A DNA stretch of 64,000 nucleotides. It comes from Gyrodactylus bullatarudis (Eukaryota > Platyhelminthes > Monogenea > Gyrodactylidea > Gyrodactylidae). The stretch covers positions 30,523 to 94,522 of the forward strand of contig SSNU01000076.1 of assembly GCA_012064415.1 (NCBI GenBank). Direction: 5' to 3'. Both the position numbers and the translations under genes were made by a program. Positions within the stretch are counted from its first letter, which is position 1. Each line of letters opens with the position of its first letter. Below are positions 6,290-63,628 of the stretch, piece after piece. The notes under the pieces are model-generated. The model saw only the letters and a program-made list of their open reading frames with translations, searched no databases and had not been told where the DNA came from.

Positions 6290-6340
6290 CCGGGGTAGAG
6301 TCTGAAGAGACCCGGCGAAATATAACGTTTATCACTATAA
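6290..6340 (+). ncRNA. hammerhead-ribozyme-like motif, copy A1
   Basis: Core elements in order: CTGAAGA (6302-6308, fits CUGANGA), an 8-nt spacer GACCCGGC, GAAA (6317-6320), a small near-palindromic stem III around AACGTT, and candidate cleavage after C6333. Stem I pairs AGT (6299-6301) with ACT (6334-6336), then a mismatch and two more pairs. CCGGG at 6290-6294 is complementary to CCCGG at 6311-6315 inside the spacer. Hammerheads are known in Penelope-like retroelements. About 45 nt downstream an ATG opens MSLDPNE, which looks like the start of a PLE reading frame (repeated at 11306-11352). All core residues are present, so this copy could be active. Confidence 0.75.
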
Positions 6341-6390
6341 TATACGCTTGTTTTCTCTAAACCTTCCTCATGAGTTTAGATCCTAACGAA

Positions 6391-6871
6391 AATATTTTAT
6401 TTACTTTCTTCAAGTTGAATTGAATTAAAAAGTCTTTCCCCCCTCTTTGATTATTTACATGATGTTTTCTGACTTCTGACCTTCAGATACATATCAGATT
6501 ACATTACTTTAATTTTGTAGTTTCACATGTATTGAAATCAATTTCAAGGGGTCTCATCTACACGTTACAATAATGAGTCTGTTGATGAAACTTCCGAAAA
6601 AGTAGTAAGCATAAGAACTCCCAGCACTGGAAAATCACGAATTGGAGGGTAAGGCAATTCTGATGCAATTGTCAAAAGAGGTGCAACTCAAGAATTTGTA
6701 AATGTCTGAAGAATTCAGTCCTTTGCAATTTAAAATGTCACTCTAAAATAAACTGTGAAAATACAGAATATAGAAAACCCTTTATAATTTTCTTTTTCAT
6801 GAAAAAATGAAAGGGAGAGATTTATTATAATTATAATTCAATTCAACTTGAAGAAAGTAAATAAAATATTA
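6391..6871. mobile_element. MITE-like element with perfect 37-bp inverted repeats
   Basis: The sequence starting AATATTTTATTTACTTTCTT at 6391 is repeated exactly in reverse complement ending at 6870 (arms 6391-6427 and 6834-6870). The ~400-bp interior has no coding potential. The left arm cuts into the PLE start sequence after MSLDPNE, so it inserted into, or formed from, a PLE terminus. Perfect arms suggest a young event. I did not find a clear target-site duplication. Confidence 0.7.
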
Positions 6872-7009
6872 TTTCAAGAAAACACGTTATTTAATTTCAA
6901 ATATTTATCGAAAGAAATGATATAAATCTTTATTTATCAATTATTTAAAACTATAATACATATTTAATACATAAGCATAGACCGATTGCTCATCCACCCT
7001 TTATTTCCT

Positions 7010-8790: not shown

Positions 8791-8794
8791 GAAT

Positions 8795-9971: not shown

Positions 9972-10020
9972 GGCATATAAGAGGCTGATGAGTATGCCTG
10001 AAATAAAGCGCTTATTCCTC
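9972..10020 (+). ncRNA. hammerhead-ribozyme-like motif, copy B1
   Basis: CTGATGA (9985-9991), 8-nt spacer GTATGCCT, GAAA (10000-10003), stem III ATAA/TTAT around AGCGC, candidate cleavage after U10016. Stem I is four perfect pairs: GAGG (9981-9984) with CCTC (10017-10020). GGCATA (9972-9977) is fully complementary to TATGCC (9993-9998) in the spacer. A second copy of this family (B2) is at 29091-29140. Base pairing and core residues are intact. Confidence 0.78.
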
Positions 10021-11305: not shown

Positions 11306-11352
11306 GTTTGTTTTCTCTAAACCTTCCTCATGAGTTTAGATCCTAACGAAAA
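11306..11352 (+). repeat. PLE 5' fragment (second copy of the MSLDPNE start)
   Basis: TTTTCTCTAAACCTTCCTCA followed by TGAGTTTAGATCCTAACGAA repeats 6350-6391 exactly. In copy A1 this lies directly after the ribozyme-like motif and includes the presumed start codon of a PLE frame. Here the ribozyme itself is absent. Confidence 0.7.
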
Positions 11353-11419
11353 GTTTAACTTTAATTCTCTCTAGTTCTGATTCATTAATAATAAAAGTCG
11401 CAAAGTTCAAGGATAAATA

Positions 11420-17941: not shown

Positions 17942-19467
17942 GTGGTCGACAAAAAAAAAGTTTTCACCAAAAATCCTTATATTTCAAGTTATCCAATATG
18001 CTAGAAAATTAAAACATACATCAATCGAAAGAGAAAAAAATTTACTATTCGGTCATAAAAACAGATTTAATAAAAATTCATTCATAAACTTAAAAATACA
18101 AATTTACGTTTTTTCATTAATTTGTAAAACGACAAAATAAAGTTTTCAGTTATATATAAAGCTATTTCTGATCTAGAGAAACTTTCATTTTGTCAAAACT
18201 AAATTTTACTTCAATTTTAGCTTCAAAACTTTAGATTTTTCATATTTTGAAATTAATTGCTAATTGATGATACCTAATAGAGCTAAAAATTCAAAACTCT
18301 CTGCATTGGAGAGGGAACGAGCTATTGAGCTCAAGCAAGAGGGTTTCAGTCATAGAAGGATTGCTAAAACTCTCGGTTGTTCTTTTACCTCAATAAACAA
18401 CCTTTTCAAGACCAAAGAATCAGTAAAATTCAAAGAAAGAAGGGGAAGAAAGGCAATCATACCGAATTGCCTCAAAAATAAAATCAGATATGCAGCTGTA
18501 AAAAACAAAAGAACTGCTCGTCAAATTAAAGATGAACTTAATTTAAAAGCCAACGTTCGTACAATTCAGCGTTACCTCAAAAGTAATGTTAAATTATCTT
18601 GGGGGAAGGCTTACAATGTTCCTAATCTAAAAACTGACGATAAGGTTGCAAGGAAAAATTGGGCAGTGGATAAAATTGTCGAGAGCATGGATTGGAGAAA
18701 AATAATATTTTCAGATGAGAAAAAATTCAATTTGGATGGGCCTGATGGTTTAAATCTGTCTTGGATTGATAGGAATCATCCGAAACCAACCCGTGTCAAA
18801 CGTGGATTTGGAGGTGGTAGTGTTATGGTCTGGGGAAGTATCACAAATGATGGAACTGGTAATTTGCATATTGTGAATGAGAAGCTGAATTCAGTTTCAT
18901 ATCAGAATTTATTAGAAACCCAATTAACTCCTTTTAAAGAGGAAATCAAAAACATGGGTCTTGTATTTCAGCAAGATAATGCACCTTGCCACAGATCTAA
19001 GTCAACCTTAAATTGGTTTAAGGAGCAAGGAATTGAATTATTACCTTGGCCTGCAAGAAGTCCTGATTTGAACCCGATAGAAAACCTTTGGGGAATTCTA
19101 GCGCAAAAAGTTTATGCGAACGGTAAACAATATTCAAATAGGACAGAATTAATCGAATCAATTTTGGTCGAGTGGAATTTAATTGGAATCGAAACAGTAA
19201 AAAATCTGTACAATTCTATGATGAAAAGGTGTTTAAATGTTGTTTTATGCGAAGGGAATTTCACAAAATGAATCTGAAAACTTTATTTTGTCGTTTTACA
19301 AATTAATGAAAAAACGTAAATTTGTATTTTTAAGTTTATGAATGAATTTTTATTAAATCTGTTTTTATGACCGAATAGTAAATTTTTTTCTCTTTCGATT
19401 GATGTATGTTTTAATTTTCTAGCATATTGGATAACTTGAAATATAAGGATTTTTTTTTGTCGACCAC
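17942..19467 (+). mobile_element. Tc1-like transposon with IR/DR termini
   Basis: A complete element bounded by TA dinucleotides (17940-17941 and 19468-19469). The inverted repeats (17942-18149 and 19274-19467) are identical over 194 bp apart from a 14-bp deletion in the outer part of the right one. Each left-hand repeat carries an outer GTCGACAAAAA...GTTTTCA motif and an inner ACGACAAAATAAAGTTTTCA motif, the IR/DR arrangement of Sleeping Beauty-like elements. The outer right motif has lost its GTTTTCACC half. An intact transposase lies inside. Near-identical arms mark a recent insertion. Confidence 0.95.
18264..19271 (+). CDS. Tc1-type DD34E transposase, intact
   Basis: 335 aa, about the normal length for Tc1 transposases (~340). 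It cuts and pastes the surrounding element at TA sites. N-terminus: first helix-turn-helix (residues ~10-55, LSALERERAIELKQEGFSHR RIAKTLG), a GRK-type linker (RRGRKA), second helix-turn-helix (~70-115). Catalytic domain: IIFSDEKKFN (first Asp), QQDNAPCH (second Asp), SPDLNPIENLWG (Glu), with 34 residues between the second Asp and the Glu. The GGGSVMVWG glycine block is present. No stop or frameshift. Translation from the first ATG of the frame; MIP start follows the inner repeat by ~115 bp. Could be enzymatically active. Confidence 0.95.
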   Translation: MMIPNRAKNSKLSALERERAIELKQEGFSHRRIAKTLGCSFTSINNLFKTKESVKFKERRGRKAIIPNCLKNKIRYAAVKNKRTARQIKDELNLKANVRTIQRYLKSNVKLSWGKAYNVPNLKTDDKVARKNWAVDKIVESMDWRKIIFSDEKKFNLDGPDGLNLSWIDRNHPKPTRVKRGFGGGSVMVWGSITNDGTGNLHIVNEKLNSVSYQNLLETQLTPFKEEIKNMGLVFQQDNAPCHRSKSTLNWFKEQGIELLPWPARSPDLNPIENLWGILAQKVYANGKQYSNRTELIESILVEWNLIGIETVKNLYNSMMKRCLNVVLCEGNFTK

Positions 19468-22152: not shown

Positions 22153-22200
22153 TCAAAGAGAGAACACTGATGATCCTTTGAGAAATGCGCATTTGGTTTT
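22153..22200 (+). ncRNA. hammerhead-ribozyme-like motif, copy C
   Basis: CTGATGA (22167-22173), 8-nt spacer TCCTTTGA, GAAA (22182-22185), then the palindrome ATGCGCAT for stem III, with candidate cleavage after U22193. TCAAAG (22153-22158) is fully complementary to CTTTGA (22176-22181), the same long-range pairing as in families A and B. Stem I is weak (two pairs, mismatch, two pairs). An ATG at 22231 opens MYLSGFSDVFEQL, resembling a PLE-type start downstream of a ribozyme. Confidence 0.55.
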
Positions 22201-22332: not shown

Positions 22333-23838
22333 TTAGTAGTTAGCGTAATAAACTTCATTGGGTGAATAGAATATTCTAGAACAAATTCCCAGATGGTTTG
22401 CTGAGACTCATAAATTTGAATGTGAAGCCTTGCCAGCGTCGGTTCTTTTTGGGGGATTTAATGGAAGTAAGGTCAAAGTGTCTGGTATCGTCAGAAACCT
22501 AAGCCTAAGCTACGATGGGGCCAGTTGTGTGTGTTCTTTCCTGGTAACAGAGCTGGAGAAATTTATTTTGAATCGGCAAACGTGTGAGGTGTCGGGTATT
22601 TCATTATCTCTGATACAGTCAAATCATGTATGAATTAATGGTGACTCTTTCAGCGCTAGCCTCAGATTAGCACGTGAGATTGATAAACGGAACTTAATAT
22701 TTCATCATAAGAATGTACCTGTCTCACTCATGCAAAAGTTGAATCGACTCTTAAAGAATGGCTGAAGGCTGGTATCATTGAACCAGTAGATAATCCTATC
22801 ATGTCGGCACCTCTATCAATCGCACATAAAAAAACGGTAAGATTAGGCTCACGAGTGGATATCACAGGACAGCTAATTTTTTCATTGATCCTGGCTCTTA
22901 TCCCACCCCACGCATCGAGGAACTTCTCTCAAAGGTTTCTAATTGTAAATACTACTCGGTGATTGATCTTTCAGATGTATACCATCAAATTGAATTGGAA
23001 AAGGAGTCGAGGTACTTGACGTGCATATCAACGCATTTGGGCTACTTCCAATTCACCAAAATACAATTCGGATTATCAGCAGCCCCAAGGATATTCCAGG
23101 AAGTCATGACGAGAGCATTGGCTGGAATACCTCTGATGGCGGTGTTTCAGGACGATATTATAATTGGTGGACGAACGGTGGCAGAGCATGATGAAGTCTA
23201 TGACATGGTTTGCTGTAGGCTGAAAACCCATGGATTCAAAACCAATTTGATGTAGCTTCAGAAATGTAGTGAGAAAATTCAATTTATGGGATTCATCATT
23301 GAGAATGGGAAAGTCCTACCTGATTCAACCAAAATTTCCAAATTTAGATCGTTAGCTGTACCCACCAATAAGACCCAATTACAGAGCCTATTAGGTATGC
23401 TACAGTATTATGGTATGATGTGCCAAAACTATTCGCCGGTACTGAGCAAGGTATTTGGGTTACTACAAAAGAAAGTGGAATGGCATTGGTGTCAGGAGTA
23501 TACGAATGCCCTTGAGACAATGTCGACCAGAATTGCCAAAGCAAGTGTCACGATATTTGATCCGAACAAGATGGTGTATATAAGCCCGGATGCGTCTGCT
23601 AAGGGCCTGGGTGCAGTCATCTCGTATGATCCCGAAATGAAACAGGTCGTCCATTACTCGAGTAGACTACTCAAGCCGTACCTGATTGGCAAAAAGTTTG
23701 TCATTCAGACGGATCACAGTCCACTGCAATACATATTCTCTGACCATTCGGAAAACAGACGGGTCTCCTCGAGGGTTGATGGATGGAGACAATGGTTGTC
23801 GTTATTCAATTATAATTGAATAATTATGAAATCAAGTA

Positions 23839-24649
23839 CAAGAGCATCTGGAATATACAAATCACACTGTTGATGTGAACAATTTCAGCATACTCTATCA
23901 GACTAACCCAGGTGATCCACGTTCAGTGAGAGAGAAAGAGTTAAACAAGGCCGAGGCCCACTTTATCAATAAGTTGGAACCCATACTGTGCAAACACAAA
24001 GTTTTGGCAACAAAACTAGGCTATGAAGGCAAAGAACGTATTAAAATGATGAAGAAGTTAGCCAAGGTTTCCAAAATCTTCAATGATAAACCAATCCATT
24101 CTTCAACTCAAGTTGCTAATAATGATTAGACTGATGCAAATCCAAAAAGCGAACAAATCGAGCAAGTAGTGGAAACTATGTCCCAATGCAATCAAGTCAG
24201 TTCTGCCCCAGCAACAATTCAAGTGCAAAAGAAGAGAAGCTAACGGATGTTAGTAATCAAATCAATTCTCAACCTGTAATTAGTATGAACCGAGAGGAAT
24301 CAAACATTGTTGCTAATCAGAAAAGAGGGAAGAAACGGAAACGATTCAGTGGACAATTATCGTTGGACGAGTTTGTGAAAAGAAGATAATTATAATTTGA
24401 AATATCAATTAGCCTTGGTGACAAATTTTAACTCATTAACTCAAAAATCCAATGAGATTATAACCAATCAGAGGAACCTGTACATTTTCTTTATTTTCTC
24501 TATAAATATCGAGCCGGTGTAATAGTCTGACGAGATCCGGTGAAATATAAGCTTTATCACTAACCATTCACTTGACTTCAAATTCCTCTAGATGATTCCT
24601 TCATCGCCACCAAATATTTTTGAAGAAGTCCGGCACTACTTTCCTCAAA
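23839..24649 (+). mobile_element. nested Penelope-like element, 5'-truncated, with 13-bp target duplication
   Basis: ATGAAATCAAGTA occurs at 23826-23838 and again at 24650-24662, bracketing ~810 bp that interrupt the gypsy frame exactly. Contents in order: end of the GIY-YIG domain and its helical tail (VREKELNKAEAHFINKLEPI, 23875-24129), a basic C-terminal extension (24186-24389, frameshifted) ending KRFSGQLSLDEFVKRR, a CCAATCAGA box (24464), TATAAATA (24501), ribozyme-like motif A2, and after ~30 nt an ATG opening MIPSSPPNIFEEV. Ending just inside a new start codon fits the tandem terminal-repeat organisation of PLEs. Confidence 0.88.
24514..24566 (+). ncRNA. hammerhead-ribozyme-like motif, copy A2
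   Basis: CTGACGA (24527-24533), spacer GATCCGGT, GAAA (24542-24545), stem III around AAGCTT, candidate cleavage after C24558. Stem I: TAGT (24523-24526) with ACTA (24559-24562), four pairs. CCGG at 24514-24517 is complementary to CCGG at 24537-24540. All core residues intact. It lies in the 3' terminal region of the nested PLE, 125 bp after its stop codon. Confidence 0.8.
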
Positions 24650-25215
24650 ATGAAATCAAGTATAGAGAAGGTGAAAGAATGTCCTTGCCAGATGCCCTGT
24701 CAAGAGTAGGTATAAAGCATGAGTATGTTGACATGGATGATGAATTCCTGGTAGTGCCACAAGTCAATTTAGTGTATCCGGATGGGTCCCATGAAACGCT
24801 CCTAAAGGCTATCAAAGAAACGGACGATCAGCTATATTTTATGTTAATTAAAGTAATCCAACGCAAGTGGAGTGGCAATACTAAGTCAGTAAGAGAGTTC
24901 AGTCAGCTCAAGGAGGACCTATACGTAGAGGATGGTGTAGTGTACATTGGTGATAGAGTGGTTGTTCCTAAACCATTGAGAACGGTTATATTAGAAGCTC
25001 TGCACAGTAACCATCCGGCAAGAGATGCTATGTACGGAATGGCCAAGAGGTATTGCTGGTGGCCAGGAATGTATTATGATGTAAATTGTTGGGTGAATGG
25101 CTGCCTTACGTGTCAGAGAAATCGCAGAAGGCGCCTCAATACTAAATACTTTCCTCAACTAAAACAATGCATTTATATGCATGCAAGTTTAAGAAACATT
25201 ATAAAATTTGACCAA

Positions 25216-25840
25216 TAGCAATTATTCATCCAAAATTGACCAATGGGAATTGGGTGTGCTCATACTCTTGGGACTGTGACGAATACATTTATTGTCTAAT
25301 TATAATTATAAGTTGATAATCGTTCTTTTTTGTTGCTTAGGTTATGTTGACAGGTTTCTTTTTCGTGATAGAGTAGGGGCTTGTACTTCCGGCTGAGAGA
25401 AATACCTCTTTCGATCAAAATTCATTGAATTCTTTTCGTAGTTTACAGAATTAGTTAAAGTATAATGATTTTAAAACTAGAAATTAAAAAAAATTAAAAT
25501 TATTAAAATTTCAAATACAAGAAATCATACTGGGCCCATTGAGTTATTTCTATCAGATATCATTTTAGCAAATGTATTTTTGTTCATTCAAAGGCTCAGA
25601 AAATACTTCTTTTATCACCCATTCGAAAGGAAATCTATTAATCTCCTGGAATACACAAAAGATCTCAGCTCTGACATTCCTCAATCTCGGGCTATACTTA
25701 CTAAGAGTCATAGACAAAAAATGAGATAAGTAATCCTACTTGTGGAATTCAAATATGAAATATCTTGAAAAAACTTGAAAAATTCAATGAAACTGTTTAT
25801 TTTACCAATTTACCTAACACATATTAAAAGAAAGGATTTA
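25216..25840. other. no gene seen
   Basis: Spacer between the gypsy relic and the 3' end of the GTPase gene. Two GACCAAT boxes occur at 25209 and 25239, but no ribozyme motif follows. Confidence 0.4.
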
Positions 25841-29090: not shown

Positions 29091-29140
29091 AGAGGAATAA
29101 GCGCTTTATTTCAGGCATACTCATCAGCCTCTTACATGCC
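29091..29140 (-). ncRNA. hammerhead-ribozyme-like motif, copy B2
   Basis: Minus-strand CUGAUGA (29127-29121), spacer GUAUGCCU, GAAA, stem III AUAA/UUAU around AGCGC, candidate cleavage after the U at 29096. Stem I AGAGG with CCUCU gives five pairs. The upstream strand GGCAUG (29140-29135) pairs with UAUGCC with one G-U, a wobble-conserving change relative to B1. AGCCAATCAGATT lies upstream at about 29273-29261. Confidence 0.78.
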
Positions 29141-44200: not shown

Positions 44201-47200
44201 TTTAACCAAATGCCATAGGCCAGCTGCTCGTCTGGCAACAGAGTATTTACACTGTGTCAAAGTCTGATAACAGTAACTGAGCACTTCACTCGAGTTTAAC
44301 AGTGTGTTTTCCCCCTCAAAAGAGTTTGTTGCATTCAAATATTCAGCCAGGGGGACGCCGACAGTTTCTATTGTACCCTAAGTTTTCAAAAACATAATGT
44401 AATTTGAACGATAATATTGTCTAACTTCATCAAAAATAACCCAATATATAGGGTTCTGAACTATTATTGGGGAAGGTTATAGAAAACAGACGTATATTAT
44501 AGTGATTAACGTTATATTTCGCCAGGTCTCTTCAGACTCTACCCTGGTTGACATATAAATACTATCACAATGCTAAATTTTGGTGCACTTCCATTGGTTG
44601 AGTTGATTGCAAATTGCATCAAAGAAGCAGGGAGGGGGTTCACTTATCATTTCACTTTTTGTCTCTTCATGAATGCATCAATTTGTAGCTGACCAGTGGA
44701 ACCTCTTCTCTTTCGCTTGGCCACTGGGCGGTTTTTATTTTTTCTTTTCTCGCTAATTACAGGTTGGCTTATAATTTGATTATCAACTATTGTTGACTTC
44801 TCTTGGGTTTCAATTTGCAACCAATGGATGTGCACAAAAATTTAGCATTGTGATAGTATTTATATCTCAACCAGGGTAGAGTCTGAAGAGACCTCACTAT
44901 AATATACGTCTGTTTTCTCTAACCTTCTCCCATAATAGTTCAGAACCCTATAATAGTAATAATGTAGTTTATTATTTTTGGTTAAATGAATCTTTCTATA
45001 AAGTATGAAGTAAATAGGATGATCTGGTTTTGGTACTTACTCGATGACGACAAGTCAAGAGGATGTGCATCAAAGATAGACCAATATTCCTAATGATTTC
45101 CTTGTCCTTATCATTAATTGTGGGTAGTTTAAGCTTGAGGGATGCCCATTTTGCGCATACCGATGAGGCTATCTAAAAATAATAAATCGAGAATTAATCA
45201 AGTTACAGCTATAACCTGAAGGAGCATACCATGACCACGTGCCAGGTCCATGACATCAGTCTTTGGTATTGTGGTGTGAGGAACGCTGTTTCCAATTCAT
45301 CCTGGCATGACTCGCTGATAGAGACGGCTATCCCTTCAAAGGATGTGGAACCTTCGTCTACAGAAATTTTTATTTAGATTCAAATGTAGCAAGTAAAAAT
45401 AAACCTACATTCAATGGAATATTTGCCGGACTCATCAACTTGATGTCTCTTGCCGCCCATCAGTTCAAAGGCGAACAGACTCAAGCTCATGATCTTCAGA
45501 ATGGAGCCATTGTCAAGATTAAATGCATCGTCATCTATCGGACTATGCTGGTACAATTTCTCCAGGAATGTCAGTAGTCCTAGATGAGATTTATTGGAAA
45601 TCTCTTGGACCAACAAGTCCCTCGGCCTGTGCAAAATGCTCATGTCAACTGAGGAATGGATGATATCCATGATCGTTTTCAGATTGAGGGCTTTCCTAAC
45701 AAAAAGTTTAGGTGTTGATAACTAACGTGGAAGAGACTAGCCAGGAGAGAATATTCGCAGAGGCTGTGTAATGTGTTAGCTCGTAGGCGTTGGATAATTT
45801 CAGGATTTCCTCGAATCGATAATCAGGTATTGACGTGTCTCCTTGTACATGGCAATGTTGACTAATCAGTTTCATGAGAACCTCTTGAAGCTAAAATGGG
45901 CAAGTTAGAGAGAGTCCGGGCTTACATCGATCGTGATATTCTTGAGGTTATCCACGAGGAAGTCGAGGGTCTTTGAGAAATCTCTAAATTGCCAATCAAA
46001 GGTCGAGGTTAGCCGGGAAATTCTGTCTTGGATCAGGGTAAGGGTGCCTTTAGTGTAACTCAGTCTTGAGTTGGAGATTCTCTCAGTACTCTTAGAGTTA
46101 AAGTCGAGTTGTTCATAGAAAATCTTCAAAGCTGCCACAATAAAAGACTGTTCTGAATAGGGTAGGCCAATTGGAAATAAGAGACCGTCCTTGGCCGTAA
46201 AATTCTTCAAGAACATTTGGATTATTTCATCTATTGATAGGGTTCAAGATTAAATTCAGTGAAATTGTAGATATTGGTTAAAACTATTAAAAGGCTAATT
46301 TTTGCTAATTTTAAATCCTGTATAAATTTGGTTCACAAATTCAGTCGTATATATAAAATAATTACAGCGTTTCCGAGAAAAATTTGCAATTTTTGCGTCC
46401 TATTTATTTTTGTAGATAATTAGTTATTTTTGCTATATGACTTAAGCATCTTGGCGGAGAATTTCTAGAAACAGAATAATTATTCCTCCTTATAATCCTC
46501 CTTAAAAACAACTTGCTTTTCACAACTTGAAAGATAAAAATTGTTCTGGAGATTAGATTATATGTTACAGCTCTATAATAGAAGGAATTGGAAGAAATCC
46601 AGACAAACTTTATTTCATACGTAAATAATTCTTAATAGATTTTCTGATAAATTAAAATAAAATACTTGTGAGAATTATCTTGATGGTTAAATTGCTTATT
46701 ATTTTTTTGCTAATTTTCAAAAAAGATGCTTAATTTTTTGACAGCTCTAAATGATTAATGACTAATATTACTAAGGTTACATACTAAGATAGAGACATCC
46801 AATTTGACTTCGGCCAAGTTCAGGGTTATTCTCAAGGCTAAGCGAGGAGATTTCTTCTTCGAGGGAAGTTGTAGAAGCAGCATCTCGAATTACAATGACA
46901 AAATCTGAGAGGGCCTTCATTGTTTGTGCTCGTTGCTTGGGAATTTGAGTCTTGATTGAAGAGTTGAACATTTCAAGCCACAACTTGAAGAGGGCCAAAG
47001 ATTTCTCACGACTCAGTGTGGTTGAAGAGCTACGCAAAAGGAATTGTGCCAAAATACTTCCTAATGACTTGAATGCCAAGAATCGAAGTTGATCATCAAA
47101 ATGTTTCGAAGCCATCTTCAGGGGAATCAAAATCTTGGGATCCAAGTCGACGATTCTTTTGGCAATTTGAATTTTATCCAGATCAATGTAATAGCAAAGA

Positions 47201-48941: not shown

Positions 48942-49993
48942 CTATTTCGTTTTTATTCCCAAGTCATCTGATCGGAGGTCTATTTTTTCAATAGCTGATT
49001 CTATAGAAACTGGTTTACTTCGTTTATTCTCGAGAAATTCTCTTACTAAATGTTCCAGTAATAATAGATAAGCATCCTCGTTGGCTGCTTCATCGGCTGG
49101 CACTTCAGTCTTCATAAAATTGCATACTTTGAAAAGATACTCATAGTTGGGACCGCAAACTCCTCTGGCATTTGCTATTTGATAAGCCTGTAACTCAATG
49201 GGACCATTGCCAATATACTGATCATTATTCGACTGTGCTATGTAGACTTGAACCATGAAATTAATTCGATCTATTCTTTTCTCTGGATCAATGTTATGAA
49301 CTAAATTTTTTGGATCATCCCTTTCCGGGTCAAAGGAATTCGAACGCTGCTTATAACCATAAAACTGTACTTGATCAAAACGATAACCTCCGAGTATCAT
49401 TTCACGCTCGGCTAAATGCTCCAATGCAACATCAATATGACTAGGATCACTAACTTCAAAGGCCACTCCCCAGACTCTTGAATTTGATAGGCTTGATGAG
49501 ACCAAAGTGGCAACCCTTCCTGGCTAGAAATAAAATACACGGATTGATAGAGATCACATTTCGATATTCACAAACAATTTTAATGTGCAAATTGCTGTTG
49601 AAAAAAAAGAACAATATCTGCATACAAAACCTAACGATGAATGTGACTAGATACTTTTTTATTGACAAAAATAGTCATACTCTAATTTGTAGCATCATGA
49701 GAAGAAATTAAGCAGAAACAAGCATCTCTCCAAAACTATTCTCTCTGCTAAAGAAATAAACTTACATTCATTGGAGTTCCACGATGTGTAGTGGTTCCCT
49801 GATAAAACCTCCTCTTGTACCCTTCAATGTAGCCGACCCAACTTCTGGAATAGGGGAAATTTGGTTTCCATATCAAGGAGCCATAGCCGAAAACGCATAA
49901 TTTGCCCGTCTCCTGGCAGACCATCATTGAGCGTAATTGAGCATATGTGATTGGTTCCTTGTTGGGTGTACTGCTATCAGGAGCCTTACTCAT
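48942..49993 (-). CDS. CHAC: ChaC-type gamma-glutamylcyclotransferase
   Basis: Degrades glutathione (or gamma-glutamyl peptides) to 5-oxoproline in the cytosol. Two exons, 49993-49766 and 49523-48942, with a 242-nt intron; 269 aa. Family signature [20 protein letters not shown] at the N-terminus (substrate loop GYGSL), [20 protein letters not shown] at the junction, VWGVAFEV, and [11 protein letters not shown] containing the catalytic Glu. A C-terminal domain ([20 protein letters not shown]) matches ChaC1/2 IA.A.G..G.N..YL. Whether it is the Chac1 or Chac2 type is not decidable here. Confidence 0.95.
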
Positions 49994-52884: not shown

Positions 52885-52889
52885 TTACA

Positions 52890-54418: not shown

Positions 54419-56621
54419 CTACTTATCCTTCATAACTAACGAACTGGTAGGGCCAGGGAGTTGATTCGAAATTTCATCTTCAGAGGAATAAATGTCTAAA
54501 ATTTGATGACAAATATCCTCGATTAACTAAAATAAAAGTTAACAACATCATAGAGATAAGCATCTAGCCAATGAACTTTATTCAGAATGAATGCAAGCTT
54601 TTACATCTCGTTTAATTAATTTATGAATTTTTCATCTTTTCCTTTTGAGAGGTTCGCTCTATATATTATTGTATATGTAGTGAACTTCCTAAAAAAAGTA
54701 TATAAAGAAGAGGATCTGACTAAAATATTTTAACCTCTTTACTAATGAGTAATGAGATTGTGGCTCTAGTTTTAATCCTCACAACGTGAAATAGGAACAA
54801 AGGGGGTCCGATATACGATGACTCAGTTAGGAAGAGTATGACGTAGTTGGTTTGGTAAATAGAGGGGTCTCTCTCAATTGTGAAAACGACTTTTCGTATG
54901 GATTTTCCAAAAGTATTGAAATGAGTTTAAAAAATAAGAAGTGGGGTTTAAGGTCGGTCTAAACTGTCACCAGGCAATATTTTGGAATGGAAATTAGGCA
55001 GCTGACTCAACTTTTGATTCTGCATCGAATGGTGTTCAATTTAATGAGCTAAGATCAAAAATACTGAACTCTGTTTTTTCAAGAGATATGAATTAGAAAA
55101 TTATTCTGGTAATAGAAGGATAGACATAGGTGACATGTTCAAATTTTCAACACATTTGAACTTGAAATGAGAGAGATAGAGGCACTCAAAGTGGATAGAC
55201 CTAGGGAGAAAAAATCTTAAATTCATCTCATTACTCATTAGTAAAGAGGTTAAAACATTTTAGTCAGATCCTCTTCTTTATATACTTTTTTAGGAAGTAT
55301 ATAGGGCGATTATTCAATGTCGTAAGTTCTCAGTTATTAGTAATAAATATCACATAATCTTATCTTATAATTCAGGCTCAAAAAAATCTCAAAAAACCAT
55401 TAAGTGTCAAAGAGATATCTACAAGTTTGGATATAATAGCCAAGATTAATAAAATTAGTTTTTCATCTACTTATTAGTTGATGGGAAAATCAATAGGAAA
55501 TCGACTTTCTTAGATGGGGTCAAAAGAATCCTTATTGAATAGAATTTTTATTAAAATCTGATTTAGAATCGTTCTATATCAGTTTTGAGTCTTTTCTCGA
55601 TTGGTTTTCTTATCGTCTCGATAGAGTTAAACTGACTCTGACAGATGAAATCAATTAGGAATAAGAAAATTGGGTTGATAATGAAATGATATCTAATAAT
55701 ACCATGCCTTTCAACGGTCTAACTTGCAGGTTGTAGCATTCTATTTTAATCTATTCTGACATTCAATTTTCACAAATCTCTAATAAATTTACCAGGAGAA
55801 TTTATTGAAAATTGAATGTCAGAATAGAATGCTACAACCCGCAAGTACATTTAAAATAATTTGAGCATAAACAATCTTTGGTCAGTAAATCAAAACTTAC
55901 TTTAACTGTCATGTCTTCAACGAATGTTTCCCACCATTTAAGATCTCTGCGTCTGTTCTCCCAGTCTTCTACAGTGAATTTGTTAATCTTGGCACCCAGA
56001 TAAAGAACAGAGCAAGCAATAATCTCTGGTTCCCATTGGAGACAAAGAGTTGTCGATAGACTGTCATTTATAAAACCCCATGCAGACTGAACAACCTTTT
56101 TGAGGGATTCTTTTTGGTTTTCTGGGCCTTGAAAATTTTACTTTCAAATTCGATTTCAACTTACAAATAATCATTTTGGCAAATTTTAATAAATATGAGT
56201 AGGGATGAATGACAGCGAGGTCAAATTTTATGGTTTTCAGCAAAATTTTCTCATAAACAATGAGAAGTTCTTTTGGATTTGGTCCGAAATATCTAAAATC
56301 TTCAATAGGAAGAATTTCTTGGGCTGTTTTAATTATGTCTCGAATCTTTTTAGGTGTTTCCTCCACTTTACCAGCGAGTAAAAGGCAACAAGTGGCTGCT
56401 ACATACTTTGGGGAATCAGTAAATGAATGAAACATGTAAAATCGATGGAAATATGTTACAGCAGTTGCAAAAGTATCATATTTAAGCTTTAAAAGTTGAC
56501 TGAGATCAATGATAAATCTAGCTCCTTCAGTTCTGAATCTTTTCTCCATAACAGCAGGGATACCTTCGCGAAAAGAAGGAGTGTTTTGAAGTTCATCTTC
56601 ACTAAAGTACCAACATGGCAT
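54419..56621 (-). CDS. CCNK: cyclin K
   Basis: Regulatory subunit of CDK12/CDK13, which phosphorylate the RNA polymerase II C-terminal domain. Three exons: 56621-56165, 56127-55901, 54525/6-54419; 263 aa. Starts MPCWYFSEDELQNTPSF, as in cyclin K. The first cyclin fold has EGARFIIDLSQLLKL, YFHRFYMFHSF and AGKVEETPKKIRDIIKTA, near-identical to the family. The second fold has SAWGFINDSLSTTLCLQWEP and WWETFVEDMTVK. The last exon is LIEDICHQILDIYSSEDE, then a short tail. The long Pro-rich C-terminus of vertebrate cyclin K is missing. Intron 1 is 37 nt. Intron 2 is 1.37 kb and holds a MITE and a hairpin. Confidence 0.95.
54684..55298. mobile_element. 615-bp MITE with ~73-bp inverted repeats in cyclin K intron 2
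   Basis: ACTTCCTAAAAAAAGTATAT at 54684 and its reverse complement ending 55298, with arms reading through GAAGAGGATCTGACTAAAA and CTCTTTACTAATGAGTAATG. Two or three mismatches over ~73 bp. No coding capacity. Different family from the AAGATG MITEs. Confidence 0.85.
55719..55851. repeat. long hairpin (inverted repeat with ~42-bp arms)
   Basis: ACTTGCAGGTTGTAGCATTC (55721 on) and GAATGCTACAACCCGCAAGT (ending near 55848) are inverted copies that continue through TCTGACATTCAATTTTCA on each side. The left arm carries a 10-bp extra segment (TTTAATCTAT). The loop is ~45 bp. In RNA from the minus strand (cyclin K intron 2) it would form a strong stem. Confidence 0.8.
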
Positions 56622-56838: not shown

Positions 56839-59686
56839 ATGAATACAGATGGTTTTTTCGTGAAGTGGAAAAAAATCACGAGCATGTCTGGTAATGTTCC
56901 GCGTTCCAGACATGGTCATAAAGCTGTAGCACTAAAGGATTTAATCGTTGTTTTTGGTGGTGGAAATGAAGGAATTGTTGATGAACTTCATGTTTTCGAT
57001 ACGTGTAATTTTGATTAAATTAATTTTTAGCCTCTTGTCAATGGTACTTACCTGCTGTACGAGGAGAAATTCCTCCAGGCTGTGCTGCTTTTGGAATGAT
57101 AGCGGATAATACTCGTATTTTGATTATTGGAGGAATGCTTGAATATGGAAAATACTCAAACGAACTCTATGAACTTCAGGCTTCCCGATGGGAATGGAGA
57201 CGTTTAAAACCGAAGCCTCCTCGTAATGGTCCATCTCCATGTGCTAGAATTGGACACAGCTTCACTCTGGTTGGTAGTAAGGCTTTCCTATTCGGTGGTA
57301 TTACTAATGACAGTGAAGATCCCAAGAACAACATTCCCAGATATCTAAATGATCTTTATACTCTTGAGTTGAGACCAAATTCCAACATGATGAATTGGGA
57401 TATCCCTATTACATACGGAGAGCCTCCCTGTCCGAGAGAATCCCATTCAGCTGTCGCCTATCAAATCCTTGACGGTGTTGTAAAAAAGTGGAGACTCCTT
57501 GTTTATGGAGGTATGAATGGAAATCGTCTCGGGGATATTTGGCTTCTTGAAATTGATACCATGACTTGGGTAAAACCCGATTTTACTGGTGACCCTCCCC
57601 TCCCACGAAGTATGCACAGTTCCACAGTCATTGGAAATCGAATGTTTGTCTTGGGCGGATGGGTTCCCCTCTCTAATATCAATGAGTCCTCCAATAACAA
57701 CTCAAACTCTAATAATCAAAAATCCACCACTCCAAACATTGTAGGAGGGGCTACTTGTATATCTGACCGAGAATGGAAGTGCACCAACTCATTGGCCTGT
57801 CTAAATCTTGATTCAATGACATGGGAACCGTTAGCCCTTGATTACTTTGATGAGAATCAAGTGCCAAAAGCCAGAGCTGGTCATTGTGCAGTTAGTGTAC
57901 ACTCTCGCTTGTACATTTGGTCAGGTCGAGATGGTTACCGCAAAGCATGGAATAATCAAGTTTGCTTCAAAGATTTATGGTTCCTTGAGACAGACAAGCC
58001 AGCCGCACCTTCAAGAGTTCATCTTGTCAAAGCAGGTACTGTTAATCTCGAGGTTACTTGGGGTACAGTTCCAACTGCTGATGCCTATGTCCTACAGATT
58101 CAGCGATACGATGTCTCTCATGCAAATACTGTCAGTCAACCTGGGCTAGTTAGAGAATCTCAAAGTCTCCAGACATTAGCCAATTTCGCCACATCGGATA
58201 ATAAAGATAATGTCATCTCTATCGTACAGCCTATTGCAGCTAAGCCTATGACAACTACAACAATTATAAATCCTGTTGCTACTCAGTCAATTGAACCAAA
58301 GTTTACACAACAGGTTCCCGCAAGTCTCAAGATAGCCTTGCCCACTACCACCGGCGCTAATAACATTGGAATTACTCCAAAGAGTACACGTCTACCAACT
58401 CAACAAATCATCAGACCTGCAAACATTACAACAAACACTACAGCAGTACGACCTAATCAGATCATCACTGTTGCTCGACCAATGCAAACCAGACCTACTG
58501 CTCCTGGTCAACAAAGTACTCCCAACCTTGTTCATCTTGTCAAATCTCAAGCCGGCATGCTACGACCTATCAAGTTGATTACTTCCACCAGTTCTGCAAA
58601 CACGACAGCAAAAATTATCAAAACAATTCCTACTTTGGGCGGCGGTGTTACTGCACAAAAACAAGCAAGCATTTCAGTACAGAAGCCGATAATTCTATCA
58701 AACCAGTCTGCTAGTGGCCTCAAAAATATTAGGCCAATAGCCCCTTATCAAGGAGATACCACTAATCTACCTCAATTGGATGGTACCGATGATACTGACG
58801 AGGTGACGGAAAGTCTCGTCGAAATTAAGGAAACAGAAAGTAATCCTGATGAAGCCTCTGAAATGTTGTTTAGTTCCCCAATACAAAATCAAAATCAACC
58901 GGAAGGTGAGAAACAAGTTAGCCTTGAAACACTTGCCAGAATGGCCTCAACAGCCAATGAAGACAAGAGTCCGAATAAGGCTGATATGATGATTAAAGGT
59001 CCAAAGAAATCTGATTCCAGCTGGCATGATGTTGTCATCATAAAAGGAACAAGTTTTAACGTTACCTCTTACTCTGCCAATACAAATGATGTCGGAGTTA
59101 ATGTTGATGCTATCTCTGCTATACAAGGGAGTGAAGGAATTAGTTCTAGTGGTCTATTTGGAACTGGTCCCAAACTAGGCCTCTCCTCAGGGGTTGCTTA
59201 CAAGTTTCGAGTTGCAGGCATAAACGCTTGTGGTAGAGGTCCATGGTCAGAAATTTCAGCTTTCAAGACATGTCTACCTGGCTTCCCTGGAGCTCCCAAC
59301 GCCATCAAGATTACTAAGAAGGAGAAGGGTGCCCAACTGTACTGGGAACCTCCACAAAATGGTTTTGGCAAGATAACTGAATACTCTGTTTACATTGCGA
59401 CAAAATCTCCAGCTACTGAAGCCGACAAGGTAAGGATCTCAACTTAATTTGAACCAAGTCCAAGTAAAATTAATCTCTTTTCTAGAATCCGAATGCAACT
59501 ACCTTTGTCAGGGTTTACTCTGGTCCCAATCCGAATGCTCTTATTCCAAACTCAGTCATTGCGACAGCTCATCTGGATACCACATCGAAACCTGCTGTCT
59601 TGTTCAGAATAGCGGCTAGAAATGAAAAAGGTTACGGTCCCGCAACTCAGGTCCGTTGGCTACAGGATTCGGTTCCATCATCTTAA
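56839..59686 (+). CDS. HCFC1: host cell factor (HCF), Kelch-FN3 chromatin cofactor
   Basis: Scaffold for transcription factors and histone-modifying complexes in the nucleus. Exons 56839-57004, 57031-59429, 59486-59686; 921 aa. Intron 1 is only 26 nt. Residues ~10-370 form the six-bladed Kelch domain, near-identical to family: [96 protein letters not shown]. Next FN3 strands begin ([20 protein letters not shown]), a Thr/Gln-rich linker, then the C-terminal FN3 pair (~residues 690-920: [36 protein letters not shown]). No HCF-type threonine repeats. A taspase-1-like QLDGTDD lies at ~residue 580 (58773-58793). Confidence 0.97.
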
Positions 59687-59875: not shown

Positions 59876-60520
59876 TCATAGCCTCCTGATGGCTCGGCGT
59901 AGCTCTTGACTTGATCTGGGTTTATTGAGAATGCTCCTAGGTGGTAGGGATCTTTCTTCAAACTCGCTGCGCTCTTTAAAGGAAAGAGAACTAATTAGAC
60001 GACCATCAAAAGTGAAGCAGCCACATCTTTTAATTTTACTTTGGTAGTACGGCAATTTACAAGTGAAACAAGTGGAAATTGAGCAAAATTGGCATCGACA
60101 GAGATCGGGAAAGTCGTTGATATGTCGAATTGATGGACTGCCGCAGTTAAAACAACGAATAACCATCTCATTTTCAGTACAACACTGTGCGGTTGATAGC
60201 CATGGATCGGATCCACTATTCTTTAAATTTCTTAGAGGAAGACGTTTAGGATCAAGGTTTTCTTTGGTTTTTTTTAGCTCTTTAATTTGTTTAAGAAATA
60301 AGTTCTTGTTTCTTAGTAGGATCTTACGCCATCTCTGAGATACACACATTGAATGTTTAAAATCAAAGTAGGAGATTTTTTTGAGAATCTCTTTAATTAT
60401 ATAGTCTGAATTGTCATGATCTTCGAGTTTTGATACAAGATCTAGATAGCGTATGCCAACATAATCGCCCGGATGGTATTCTTTGAACATTAATGATTTG
60501 AAATTCAAATTTTGAATCAC
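59876..60520 (-). CDS. FBXO5: Emi1/Rca1-type APC/C inhibitor (FBXO5/FBXO43-like)
   Basis: 214 aa, no intron. Family members block the anaphase-promoting complex and so control mitotic or meiotic progression. F-box at residues ~40-72 (YIIKEILKKISYFDFKHSMC VSQRWRKILL). Zinc-binding (IBR-like) region at ~122-168: CFNCGSPSIRHINDFPDLCR, CQFC, CFTC, ending CGC, with the S-P after the first C-x2-C that is typical of Emi1. The protein ends ELRRAIRRL, matching the LRRL tail that Emi1 inserts into the APC/C. Shorter than vertebrate Emi1 (~450 aa); the long N-terminal region is absent. FBXO5 versus FBXO43 is not decidable. Confidence 0.85.
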   Translation of the reverse strand: MIQNLNFKSLMFKEYHPGDYVGIRYLDLVSKLEDHDNSDYIIKEILKKISYFDFKHSMCVSQRWRKILLRNKNLFLKQIKELKKTKENLDPKRLPLRNLKNSGSDPWLSTAQCCTENEMVIRCFNCGSPSIRHINDFPDLCRCQFCSISTCFTCKLPYYQSKIKRCGCFTFDGRLISSLSFKERSEFEERSLPPRSILNKPRSSQELRRAIRRL

Positions 60521-60745
60521 GAATTACACTTGGTTACTTTTTCAAGTGTAATGTTAAAACAAGCAATGTGATTAGATCATATTCCTGTGTTTAAATGAAA
60601 CTTTGTAAGTCTTTTGAAACTTAACTTGAGTGACTAATGTCTTTAATCACTATACTTGCAAGTAGTAAAATCAAAAGAAAAATATTAATCAGATACTGTA
60701 TTTGTTTAATATTCAAAAATGTACATATTTTTTCTTATCATTGTC
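60521..60745. other. short spacer
   Basis: 225 bp between the start of the Emi1-like gene and the Wnt stop codon, both on the minus strand. AT-rich; no clear promoter box. Confidence 0.4.
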
Positions 60746-63628
60746 TCAGAAACATTTTTCTTTAATTTTCACAACAAGGCATTTCTCACATTGCACTTTG
60801 CAACACCATACGAATTTGCAATTACAATTTTCCATTTCATAAACCACCTTCGATTCATGACCCCTTCCACAACACAACTTATTACAGCTATTCTCAGCTC
60901 CTTGAGTAGAGTTGCAACTCCTACCCTCGGTACCTGGTATGTTAAACTTTCTGTTGGCAGTGCAAAAGTCAATATCCTTCTTATTCTCATAATAAACTAG
61001 ATGATTTTTTATTGGCTCTGGCTTTGAGAATTTATTCGATAGATTTCTTCGATTTCGTCCAAAGGCTGATCGATTTTTATCCATTTGAACAGCGCTCAGA
61101 TATTTTTGTTTGAGCAAATTTCCGATGGATCGAATTGTCGGTATTCTTCTGTAGCAGGTTTTAAGAGTGCACGAACCTGAGGCTCCATGGCATCGGCAAT
61201 ACAATTCCATGTTTAGGGCAACATTCTACAAATTCAGAAATACCAAGTTCAAAGTGTCTGTCATAAAACTGAGTAATCAAGTGATTCATAAAGAATGTGT
61301 TGAAATTCATTTATTTAGAATGCTGGTCCAAGCAGTTATGATGAACTCAAAACGAGGTAATAAAATCGCTTAAAAGTTGTTGTTAAAGACTGAGACTACA
61401 TTTTATGTTTTATGATACAATGTGTAATAACGTAAAAATTTAGATTTATTCTACAATGTTGAATATTTCTCGGACAGATCAACATAATACCCCGAAGATG
61501 GCATCCTGAAGATATCTTAGAGGAATTAACATTAAATAATTAATTAATTTCACCAAAATAAAAAACTCTATAGTTTACATCATCCACTTGATAATTCAGA
61601 TCGAAACCCATAAGTGAAGTGTTTAGAAAGGATTCTCTTTCATCATTCTAGAAAGTCTAGAAATGAGGCAAGGGCTTCTAATAATTTGCAAAAAATTGCA
61701 TCAAAATCTATTTCACGATGCTGAAAAATCCCTTTTTGAATACAAAACTTTTGATATCCAACTCAGTCCAGACACAAAAAACCTTTTTATTTATTTTCTA
61801 TTAACCCCCTTAGAATAAAATAATAAAACAAACATACCCTTCGTCCAGCTATATTGTTATGACGATTCATAGAATATTTCAAGTTTCGTCCAATCTCCAT
61901 AGAGTCGAATAATTTTCTTGTTAATTTGCGAGCATAGAATATATTGTGATCACATCCATACCATTGCCATTCATTGGAGTTGGAGCGGCGGCCACGATTG
62001 TCACAAGGACAGTCTCCAATTCTCTGATGACAGGCTTCGGCTATGGACTGCATAACACCAGCATTGATCAAGGAATGAACAAATGCCGTCTCAGGAATTC
62101 CTATGAGAGAATTTTTAGAGAATTCCTATGAGAGAATTTTTAGAGAATTTCTATTAGAAATTTTCTAATCTTTAGTGCTTTATATTCAGAGGTGTCAACA
62201 TTTCTCACCCATTCAAGAAACTCTAACCCATCTTTCTATTACCATTATCTACTCTTTGACTCCATTTTTGAATGATCTATCAAGTTTAAAAATAATAATT
62301 TCTTATATTAGAGGAAAACTTGATTATTCCTCGACCCTTCTTAAATCTGAACTTGATTCAAAAATCTAAGCCCTCTGTTTTGGGATCTAACATTTTTTGA
62401 AAAGTTTATCCATGGTATTCCGTAAACATTGCTGAGTTTACGTTTTAATGAGTTTGGATTTTCTGCAGTAGCTCATGATGTTGTGTAAATGCGACATGGA
62501 GTACCGCAGCTCACTATTAGTTTAACCCTTTCGGTGCCGATAGACATATATGTCCATTTTATAATTTTTTTGAACCCTCATAACTCTGGATCAATTAAAG
62601 TTTTAATTGAGGCCCACAATGTGAACTTGCATTAGTAATATTTTTGGCCAAATAACTTGGTATCTTCATAGCTAAATTTTGGTTTTCATAAATATTGTGA
62701 AATAGTCTCGGTACTGTTGATGAAAAATATAGGAAAATATCTATGACCCTGGGAAGTAGGTTTTCAAAGAACCGTTTTAAACAAAAATTAATCTTTTGAA
62801 AAAAATCCACTCTCTTTAAACTAGTATAGCACGAGTTTGACGACTGATAGAGCCAAGATCTTTGCGTATTCCAGGAGATTAATCAATTTCCTATCAAATG
62901 GATGGTGAACAAAGTATTTTCTGAGGCTTGAATGAATAATAATGATCTGTTTCCAATGAAGAACTCATTGTGAGGATTCAGAAGACAAGTGAATATTTAG
63001 TGATAAAGCTTATAATTCACCGGATCTCATCAGATTCTTACACCGGCTAGATATACATGCAATTTTAAACCTGATAAAATTTTTGATAAAATCCTCTGAT
63101 TGGTTCAATCGGATTTGAGCACAATAAAGGGGGAAGGAATAATAATGAGTTGCTAAAATGACATGTGATAGAACTATCTTTTACTAAAATGATTCTAAAT
63201 TTTCTAATGACTAACCTCTCTCCAAAAGATTTCCGAATAATTCAAGGGAATTTTTCGAATTCTCCTGATCCAAAGTGGAACAATTCCAGCGTTCATTCTT
63301 CATCTGATGCTGACACTCAGCAACTGCTCGTTTCACGCCCATAATGACAGCTTCGAGAAGAGGTATATTAACCTTCATTTTAGCTGGCTTCTTCTCATTC
63401 GGATTAGTGTGCTGGTTATTCTGGAGGAATTGGCGCCATTGAAATCGACTCAAAAGTTTAGCGTAGGCTCTCAGTTGTTCGTACCACTGATTCGTCAGCT
63501 TTGTTAGGTCTAATTCACTCATGGGTGATTTCATAATCTCATCTGAAGCCTTGGAACTTGAGTCATCTTCCAGTTCATGTGAGTACGGAAGTTCATGTCG
63601 GTAGAGTACACTTATCAAGTTGTCCATT
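60746..63628 (-). CDS. Wnt: Wnt family secreted signalling protein (first exon missing)
   Basis: Lipid-modified ligand of Frizzled receptors. Exons found: 63628-63216, 62100-61838 and 61225-60746, in frame for ~384 aa, close to normal Wnt length. Signatures: VKRAVAECQHQMKNERWNCS, GIPETAFVHSLINAG, EWQWYGCDHNI, NRHNNIAGR, CRCHGASGSCTLKTC with the Ser that is normally acylated, and a C-terminal Cys-rich block ending CKFVWCCKVQCEKC. The proposed first residues (MDNLISVLY) lack a signal peptide, and a splice acceptor (TTAATTCCAG) directly precedes the ATG, so an upstream exon with the signal sequence is expected beyond ~63700. Subfamily not assigned. Introns are 1115 and 612 nt. Confidence 0.95.
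62522..62600 (+). mobile_element. piggyBac-like terminal end in Wnt intron 1
   Basis: TTAA at 62522-62525 followed by CCCTTTCGGTGCCGATAGAC and the palindrome GACATATATGTC. TTAA plus CCCTTT is a typical piggyBac terminus. The matching right end was not located. Likely a MITE derived from piggyBac. Confidence 0.45.
63000..63046 (-). ncRNA. hammerhead-ribozyme-like motif, copy A6 (mutated core), in Wnt intron 1
   Basis: CUGAUGA (63033-63027), spacer GAUCCGGU, then GAAU where GAAA is expected, and stem III around AAGCUU. CCGG (63046-63043) pairs with CCGG (63023-63020). ACCAATCAGAGG and TGTATATCT lie upstream as in copy A2. Stem I pairing is poor (AGAAU against ACUAA). Sense to Wnt. The GAAA change and weak stem I argue it is inactive. 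Confidence 0.65.

Follow-up and report, generated by a model that had tools for sequence, protein, structure and literature searches.

Hammerhead-like loci in a Gyrodactylus genome window

We analyzed a 64,000-nt stretch of contig SSNU01000076.1 from Gyrodactylus bullatarudis (the window), together with the 77.3-Mb genome of this flatworm, for type I hammerhead ribozyme-like loci in which a long-range pseudoknot helix appears to stand in for helix II. The window contains seven exact matches to the pattern CTGANGA-N8-GAAA, where 0.30 would be expected; none of 100 shuffles reached seven. Six copies, designated A1, B1, C, A2, B2, and A4, combine the full core with a spacer of 8 nt to which an upstream segment is complementary (Table 1). 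Stem I of the window C copy contains a single mismatch. The A6 copy has decayed, with its GAAA mutated to GAAT, and the A5 remnant is without the spacer end, the GAAA, and stem III. A match at 48665 on the minus strand, considered as an additional locus, has no other hammerhead feature and was assigned to background. The A2 ribozyme sits between an RNase H frame (23286-23819) and an integrase zinc-binding frame (24592-25218), as if it had been inserted into a Gypsy-like element.

These loci had been noticed in an earlier reading of the window, and that observation is real overall: the motif, the spacer, and the upstream complement lie in the places given, and every complementary pair quoted for an individual copy is present in the sequence. 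The nine loci counted in the original prediction do exist as places, and they resolve into six full cores, one decayed copy (A6), and two remnants (A5 and the flank at 11308-11391). The core was defined by the search pattern, so that CUGANGA...GAAA is not an independent test of hammerhead membership.

TABLE 1 Hammerhead copies, remnants, and host genes (window positions unless a contig is named)
Feature	Position	Strand	Core	Pseudoknot strands	Remarks
A1 hammerhead	6290-6336	+	CTGAAGA 6302-6308; GAAA 6317-6320	CCGGG 6290-6294 with CCCGG 6311-6315 (spacer 6309-6316)	Stem I 6299-6301/6334-6336; stem III region 6320-6332; cleavage predicted after 6333; pair counts in A1+A3 alignment
B1 hammerhead	9972-10020	+	9985-9991	GGCATA 9972-9977 with TATGCC 9993-9998	Cleavage predicted after 10016; B+A2 alignment
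A-type downstream flank	11308-11391	+			Repeat; no hammerhead core
C hammerhead	22153-22198	+	22167-22173	TCAAAG 22153-22158 with CTTTGA 22176-22181	Stem III palindrome ATGCGCAT 22185-22192; cleavage predicted after 22193; class C alignment
A2 hammerhead	24514-24562	+	From 24527	CCGG 24514-24517 with CCGG 24537-24540	B+A2 alignment
B2 hammerhead	29092-29140	-	From 29127	GGCATG 29140-29135 with TATGCC 29119-29114	B+A2 alignment
A4 hammerhead	44501-44547	-	From 44535	CCAGG 44547-44543 with CCTGG 44526-44522	A1+A3 alignment
A5 remnant	44871-44905	+			Keeps pseudoknot strand, stem I strand, and CTGAAGAGACC; inverted repeat
A6 decayed hammerhead	63000-63046	-	From 63033	CCGG 63046-63043, still spacer-complementary	Inverted repeat
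Family B downstream GGCAUC	Roughly 20-30 nt after GAAA	+ and -	9985 (+), 29127 (-)		Also in copies such as L028 and L092
9-nt-spacer B sub-family	G000:C28:61651, C98:508079, C103:560817, C70:9488, and others				Genome places
Guanylate-binding protein	27564-28337				Host gene
Aldo/keto reductase	35452-36015				Host gene
ChaC	48942-49505				Host gene
Cyclin	56064-56621				Host gene
Host cell factor	57096-59447				Host gene
Wnt	60746-61210				Host gene

Abundance and spacer length in the genome

The same pattern occurs at 4865 places in the genome (2335 + 2530), versus 156 (78 + 78) for the reversed pattern. Spacers of 7 nt were found at 807 places (reversed control, 179) and spacers of 9 nt at 719 (reversed control, 175). 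The 7-nt spacers look assorted, which suggests that the true background may be closer to several hundred places than to the reversed-control count; our own rough estimate is that some 4000 places of the 8-nt form are real. Patterns requiring exact pairing in the pseudoknot helix matched 510 places for family B, 707 for class C, and 315 for A1, with zero reversed-control matches for each, so that at least 1532 genome copies fit them. The spacer length had been described as exactly 8 nt, and 8 nt is indeed a strong mode, but a 9-nt relative of family B (GTATGCCAC) is real as well: the GGCAT partner, and with it the same pseudoknot, is kept in four of the five places fetched, with a shorter linker.

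Covariation of the upstream/spacer helix

Pairing was assessed in 100 distinct places out of the 4865 matches, chosen independently of the upstream segment; one containing an N was set aside, leaving 99. A Watson-Crick run of at least 5 between a copy's own spacer and the 24 upstream nucleotides was present in 55 of the 99, compared with 9.3 for shuffled, 13.3 for swapped, 7 for reversed, and 21 for reverse-complemented spacers, the last value being raised by self-complementary words such as CCGG. The register is narrow, with the third spacer base mostly pairing 8 or 9 nt ahead of the core. Within that register, Watson-Crick runs of at least 4 were found in 67/99 places, versus 10.1 shuffled (maximum, 19) and 15.3 swapped (maximum, 24), and the count rose to 75/99 when G-U pairs were admitted, versus 20.7 and 28.4, respectively.

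Pairs were counted in three alignments, class C (33 rows), B+A2 (29 rows), and A1+A3 (22 rows), against 500 shuffles and against slid registers; the B+A2 and A1+A3 counts take in the single 10.1-11.1 pair besides the pseudoknot. The places considered numbered 134, of which 28 were unclassified and were kept out of the class alignments except for the window C copy, which was added. From 57 distinct A/B stretches, 51 were aligned (29 + 22), grouped by spacer subfamily; those left out were L003, L097, L109, and L117, which have odd spacers, the A2 copy in L118, and L157. An A2 copy misclassed by the stem I rule (L045) was dropped from the class C alignment and kept in the 42-place palindrome count and the column-pair ranking given below.

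All three alignments exceeded every one of the 500 shuffles and every slid register in the percentage of paired cells, the number of double-change cells, and the covariation score. In the class C pseudoknot, 87.4% of the cells are paired, with 34 double-change cells versus 9.3 in shuffles (0/500), and the covariation score is 0.488 versus at most 0.171 in slid registers. One class C position is occupied by C-G in 14 rows, U-A in 12, A-U in 2, and U-G in 2, and the adjacent one by A-U in 21, C-G in 6, U-A in 3, and G-C in 1. The scores of the other two alignments are 0.546 for B+A2 (at most 0.157 slid) and 0.331 for A1+A3 (at most 0.124 slid). All copies stem from rather few families, and simple counts therefore overstate their independence. 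Trees built from the flanks without the pseudoknot columns, which allow for descent and exclude L047 and L083, carry 18 branch changes that alter both partners and keep the pairing (9, 5, and 4 in the three alignments), versus a total of at most 3 at any one slide. Compensatory changes had been cited in the original prediction as an argument for real pairing, with a lack of significant covariation named as what would speak against it; the three alignments and the trees bear that argument out. Judged by covariation, the long-range upstream/spacer helix is real.

Stem I and the remnant of helix II

Covariation extends to stem I, where double changes occur at 5/5 pairs of the class C alignment, and the A15.1-U16.1 pair is kept in 32/33 class C rows. 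An intramolecular helix II hairpin of at least 2 bp, a usual hammerhead feature that is reduced in some members, is not found. At 10.1 and 11.1, the two ends of the spacer, families A and B form G-C or G-U in 61/64 classified places, and in 51/51 alignment rows when rows are picked by spacer subfamily, so that helix II would be made up of this lone pair and the long-range helix. In most class C rows, the last spacer base is itself part of the long-range helix (U-A in 21/33). Some class C subfamilies have U-A or G-C as first and last bases, and others have A.A or U.U; class C copies adjacent to Penelope-like elements (PLEs) with A.A at 10.1/11.1 include L142, L145, and L147. The claim that stem II keeps a G-C or G-U pair thus stands for A/B and fails for part of class C, whose subfamilies without a standard 10.1-11.1 pair appear to go beyond what had been proposed. 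That the long-range helix substitutes for stem II is partly supported, in that the helix covaries and is located where helix II would be.

An outer stem was also looked for. Duplexes between upstream and downstream flanks were no better than shuffled in five groups comprising 100 copies (mean z, -0.15 to 0.44), and a helix IV placing the pseudoknot strand in its loop was rejected. The pseudoknot strand is tied to stem I by 3 to 4 nt, leaving no room for such a helix.

These loci could also be read as ordinary hammerheads with a degenerate stem II hairpin, the upstream pairing being the usual contact between loop II and stem I. About 40% of hammerheads are predicted to have a stem I-stem II pseudoknot, and stem II can shrink to two pairs or one, according to the available text of PMC3088659. 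Here, the 8-nt spacer is consumed by the long-range helix, leaving room for no more than one other pair, part of class C is without even the standard 10.1-11.1 pair, and the crystal structure paper, in the part available (PMC11300833), treats the pseudoknot as replacing helix II. We consider this reading very unlikely, and contact versus replacement is partly a question of wording.

Stem III palindromes and dimer formation

In class C, a perfect 6-nt palindrome directly follows GAAA in 39/42 places, in three versions (TGTACA, TACGTA, and TGCGCA); L045 is one of the three exceptions. In A/B, a palindromic hexamer, in five versions, occupies the center of stem III in 44/64 places. A 4-bp palindromic stem III had been proposed for all families, and this describes class C; A/B have instead a stem III region of 13 to 14 nt with a palindromic center. 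The innermost class C pairs covary, with 36:39 being GC in 25 rows and AU in 8, and 37:38 being UA in 17 and CG in 15. A hairpin cannot form these two pairs, yet both change together. Nine stem III segments folded alone gave no hairpin, and their homodimers were calculated at -4.5 to -13.6 kcal/mol. Such a palindromic, covarying center points to dimers, as the original prediction had suggested, and the pseudoknotted hammerheads would accordingly be expected to act in pairs. Diminished stem III, PLEs, and dimers are all reportedly mentioned in the abstract of Lunse 2017, the publication nearest to this proposal of dimers. A palindromic stem III as a dimer signature is described, in the available portions of the sources, for newts and viroids (PMC6155905), Aedes and other repeats (PMC3088659), axolotl (PMC7229834), and PLEs (PMC7761336).

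If copies meet through stem III, the pseudoknot might also form in trans, each upstream segment pairing with the spacer of its partner in a domain swap that yields an obligate, interlocked dimer. Stem III is palindromic in most classified copies, and the copies of one family share the same segment pair, which makes intermolecular pairing possible too. Covariation cannot separate the cis from the trans arrangement; the linker of 3 to 4 nt to stem I suits a cis helix lying beside stem I, and we give the trans arrangement only a slight chance. A related proposal goes further: part of class C would have no intramolecular helix II at all, its 3' strand of helix II (from 11.1) pairing solely with an upstream strand; helix III would be complete only between molecules; and the RNA, left with a single ordinary intramolecular helix out of three, would act as a symmetric dimer in which strand exchange builds both active sites. 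This seems doubtful to us; if true, these PLE ribozymes could act only upon an encounter between two element RNAs or between two copies within a single transcript.

Penelope-like element carriers

The genome contains 19 GIY-YIG matches, of which 12 have an exact motif on the same strand 201 to 488 nt downstream (10 of family B, 1 of class C, and 1 of A1). One locus (L118) has an open frame of 731 amino acids that matches RVT_1 (1.7e-14) and GIY-YIG (2.4e-4; 21.8 bits, cutoff 22.6); at a second (L123), GIY-YIG scores 24.2 bits. Among the matches listed for the L118 protein (at least 120), the named relatives are mostly fluke proteins, plus a tapeworm and a coral. A genome search using the L118 protein as query yielded 68 scored matches, at either 36 to 39% or 47 to 100% identity. 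A same-strand motif lies downstream of the open reading frame (ORF) in 15 of the 20 PLE copies inspected: a family B motif in 5/8 of the closer group and a class C motif in 10/12 of a more distant clade. The second clade shows its 36 to 39% identity over the region that holds GIY-YIG in L118, and the C-terminal piece of one of its copies has no Pfam GIY-YIG match. The stop codon and the core are separated by 240 nt in L118 and by 174 nt in a class C carrier. Families B and C thus lie 3' of Penelope-like ORFs of two clades, as the proposed PLE association had it. When the PLE protein alignment was compared with viral contigs, there were 6 pattern matches, none confirmed as a relative; against genome contigs, with no other flatworm genome among them, there were 75, none confirmed.

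Neighboring B copies lie head to head (minus left, plus right) in 15 of 17 pairs within 3 kb, from 100 places listed of 510, an arrangement that suggests an inverted 5' copy in many elements. Mutual alignments of A and B copies extend over a median of about 65 to 120 nt around the ribozyme. Alignments of this length are as expected for short, truncated insertions, and divergence also shortens them.

The motifs beside PLE ORFs carry eight different compensated helices, which bears on whether the complementarity has any RNA function or merely reflects conserved DNA words or the common descent of a few repeat families, with no ribozyme involved. The number of ancestral families is limited and many copies have decayed, as such an account would have it. 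Against it are the slid-register and tree-based controls, the simultaneous covariation of stem I and stem III, and the variety of compensated helices just mentioned; we regard it as extremely improbable.

A proposed mechanism and its difficulties

We favor a joint reading, to which we assign a probability of roughly 85%, in which a PLE-borne ribozyme uses its pseudoknot helix to build helix II and to lock it beside helix I, and in which the palindrome of stem III allows dimers. The spacer would supply the 3' strand of helix II (from 11.1 or 11.2 onward), and the upstream segment would replace the 5' (10.x) strand with the same polarity, tied through 3 to 4 nt to the far end of stem I. A single pseudoknot helix of 4 to 6 bp would then do both jobs known from extended hammerheads, building helix II and holding helices I and II side by side. 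We infer this side-by-side geometry, which would agree with the available text of PMC11300833 on the pseudoknot helix filling the role of helix II. At the base, one 10.1-11.1 G-C or G-U pair would nearly always stay in A/B, and several class C subfamilies would lose even that. Stem III would consist of 2 to 4 bp capped by the palindrome, so that two copies could pair and complete helix III as a dimer. Located 3' of the PLE ORF, with a minority also having a direct upstream copy, the ribozyme could by cleavage set the RNA ends or trim multimeric transcripts to unit length. The anatomy of the sequences, their covariation and palindromy, and the link of families B and C to PLEs are observations, from which we infer folding, self-cleavage, action as dimers, and a role in the element's cycle.

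Several observations weigh against this reading. In the sample, 24/99 places have no in-register helix of 4 even when G-U is counted; some of these are background and some are decayed. On the trees, 41 single changes (15, 11, and 15) and 5 double changes break a pair, which is as expected of decaying copies, yet is no evidence of constraint. In an RNAalifold-like ranking of 741 column pairs, only some pseudoknot pairs come near the top: ranks 5, 10, and 12 in class C, rank 6 in A/B, and ranks 1 and 14 for all classes together. This ranking used a single fixed register for all rows, with A1/A3 shifted by one nucleotide, and it is less clear owing to the few families, the 1-nt register differences between subfamilies, and the many decayed copies. 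Neither the number of pairs showing double changes nor the number of pair types clearly exceeded the shuffles for B+A2 (reached in 457/500 and 102/500), for the class C pseudoknot (421/500 and 106/500), or for class C including stem I and the stem III center (113/500 and 95/500); the corresponding values for A1+A3 were 18/500 and 16/500. The A/B alignment rows were themselves chosen by spacer subfamily, and for four class C pseudoknots the duplex taken by itself is weak (-1.5 to -3.9 kcal/mol). Only 1 of the 12 GIY-YIG-linked motifs belongs to family A (L020), for which there is little ORF evidence of a carrier so far. A direct upstream copy of the motif is present in only 3/12 full-length PLEs, within the 1.3 to 1.5 kb fetched and with L160 and L161 left uncounted, so that two-site cleavage to unit length is not the rule. 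Finally, family B has a second complementary segment downstream, and the pseudoknot partner is therefore not unique in that family.

This second segment, a GGCAUC beyond the cleavage site on its downstream side, could make family B a switch in which it vies with the upstream segment for the spacer, an active fold and an inactive one being in competition. Of the 33 B copies, 20 have a downstream stretch of 5 or more nucleotides complementary to the spacer, versus 1.65 with shuffled spacers, compared with 0/35 in A (2.0 shuffled) and 0/42 in class C (3.6 shuffled). The segment is, however, confined to family B, and B copies align locally up to a median of +51 from the CTGA start, near GGCAUC, which may thus be part of the 3' end of the element. 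Furthermore, L131/L157 keep just 4 bp downstream versus 6 upstream. We judge such a switch unlikely.

Other features of the window

Inverted repeats of 67 to 181 nt at 98 to 100% identity bound the units 17969-19454, 1072-2282, and 54692-55291. The first pair encloses a DDE_3 transposase frame (18264-19271) and the second a DDE_1 frame (1342-1764), and these units are probably young DNA transposons. The best fluke and tapeworm proteins are 73 to 75% identical to the host cell factor over 43 to 45% of the query; the match with the best E value is labeled Trichuris trichiura, a nematode, at 54% identity. By these proteins the host looks like a neodermatan flatworm, and an arthropod host, which the gene content had at first suggested, was rejected.

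Comparison with known hammerhead systems

The Rfam model Hammerhead_1 (RF00163) has the same type I core and cleavage logic and a 4-bp stem II. An Rfam search gave no hammerhead match in the window at E values up to 10, and none in the PLE loci L118, L137, and L138 at E values up to 5. Canonical hammerheads with a 4-bp stem II (TCC/GGA pattern) occur at 317 places in the same genome, versus 0 for the reversed control, and all four loci fetched (L162 to L165) match Hammerhead_1 (39.4, 32.5, 21.8, and 19.3 bits), one of them above threshold. Since canonical copies from this genome are found by the model, the missing matches for the pseudoknotted copies reflect the library and not the genome, and a search that missed every window copy suggests rescanning other animal genomes for hammerheads with 8- to 9-nt spacers. 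At two of the four canonical loci (L162 and L164), we read a tRNA-like B-box sequence just upstream of the hammerhead, which suggests a hammerhead-bearing short interspersed element (SINE). Such an element would resemble the Smalpha repeat of schistosomes.

The replacement of helix II by a pseudoknot is a published principle, as far as PMC11300833 and PMC3088659 set it out. A pseudoknot-containing hammerhead (Weinberg 2015, as cited) has been crystallized (Zhan 2024, PDB 8YDC; PMC11300833); according to the available text, its CUGAUGA and GAAA are separated by 8 nt, GACUGGAC, and its pseudoknot joins CCAG to CUGG in addition to a single G10.1-C11.1 pair. The Gyrodactylus copies share with it the 8-nt spacer and the pairing of loop with upstream sequence in place of helix II. 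They differ in that the pseudoknot strand of the crystallized form, as described there, is the loop of a helix IV hairpin linked to helix I by AUAAAA, whereas here the strand lies in no such loop, the link is 3 to 4 nt, and there is no outer stem; also unlike that form, their stem III is palindromic, and some class C subfamilies have no standard 10.1-11.1 pair. According to the same paper (PMC11300833), the pistol ribozyme shares its layout with the pseudoknot form; the core here is that of a hammerhead and not of pistol. A metagenome hammerhead with a one-bp stem II and a 6-bp pseudoknot, needed for activity and rescued by compensatory mutation, appears in PMC3088659 (Fig. 4), but it is, as presented there, of type II, whereas the Gyrodactylus copies are of type I and reside in retroelements. 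A U.U mismatch at the base of stem II is by itself not new, to judge from the natural U10.1-U11.1 mismatch mentioned in PMC3088659 and from HHR_Amex2 of the axolotl in the text available (PMC7229834).

Our literature search found no type I PLE-borne hammerhead with a pseudoknot replacing a stem II of 0 to 1 bp, Lunse 2017, Cervera 2014, Weinberg 2015, and Arkhipova 2017 being outside its reach, and no paper combining Gyrodactylus with a hammerhead ribozyme. The apparent novelty lies in a type I hammerhead that is borne by retroelements, is prone to form dimers, and has no helix IV; in some subfamilies even the 10.1-11.1 pair is missing. Two PLE clades and several compensated helices amount to a natural series of mutations in which to ask whether a pseudoknot can fully replace helix II, whether dimers must form, and why covariance models miss pseudoknotted ribozymes. 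One PLE hammerhead cleaves in vitro only with protein added, in the account available from PMC11167929, which also notes earlier self-cleavage of a PLE hammerhead at 3 to 25 mM Mg2+; a negative result with naked RNA would therefore need a protein control.

Also close are the minimal or dimeric type I hammerheads of PLEs and animal repeats (Cervera and de la Pena 2014; Lunse 2017; PMC7761336, PMC6155905, PMC7229834, and PMC3088659, each as far as available). The Gyrodactylus copies resemble these in being of type I with a weak, palindromic stem III, in what may be a location in PLE pseudo-long terminal repeats, in their thousands of dispersed copies, and in their proposed action as dimers. PLE hammerheads are described in the portions available as minimal, without helix III and/or characteristic tertiary interactions (PMC7761336 and PMC6155905), and the later review (PMC7761336) calls their role unknown. 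Compared with the PLE hammerheads so reviewed, the copies described here have a covarying pseudoknot that stands in for helix II, and this pseudoknot could supply both helix II itself and the contact between helices I and II.

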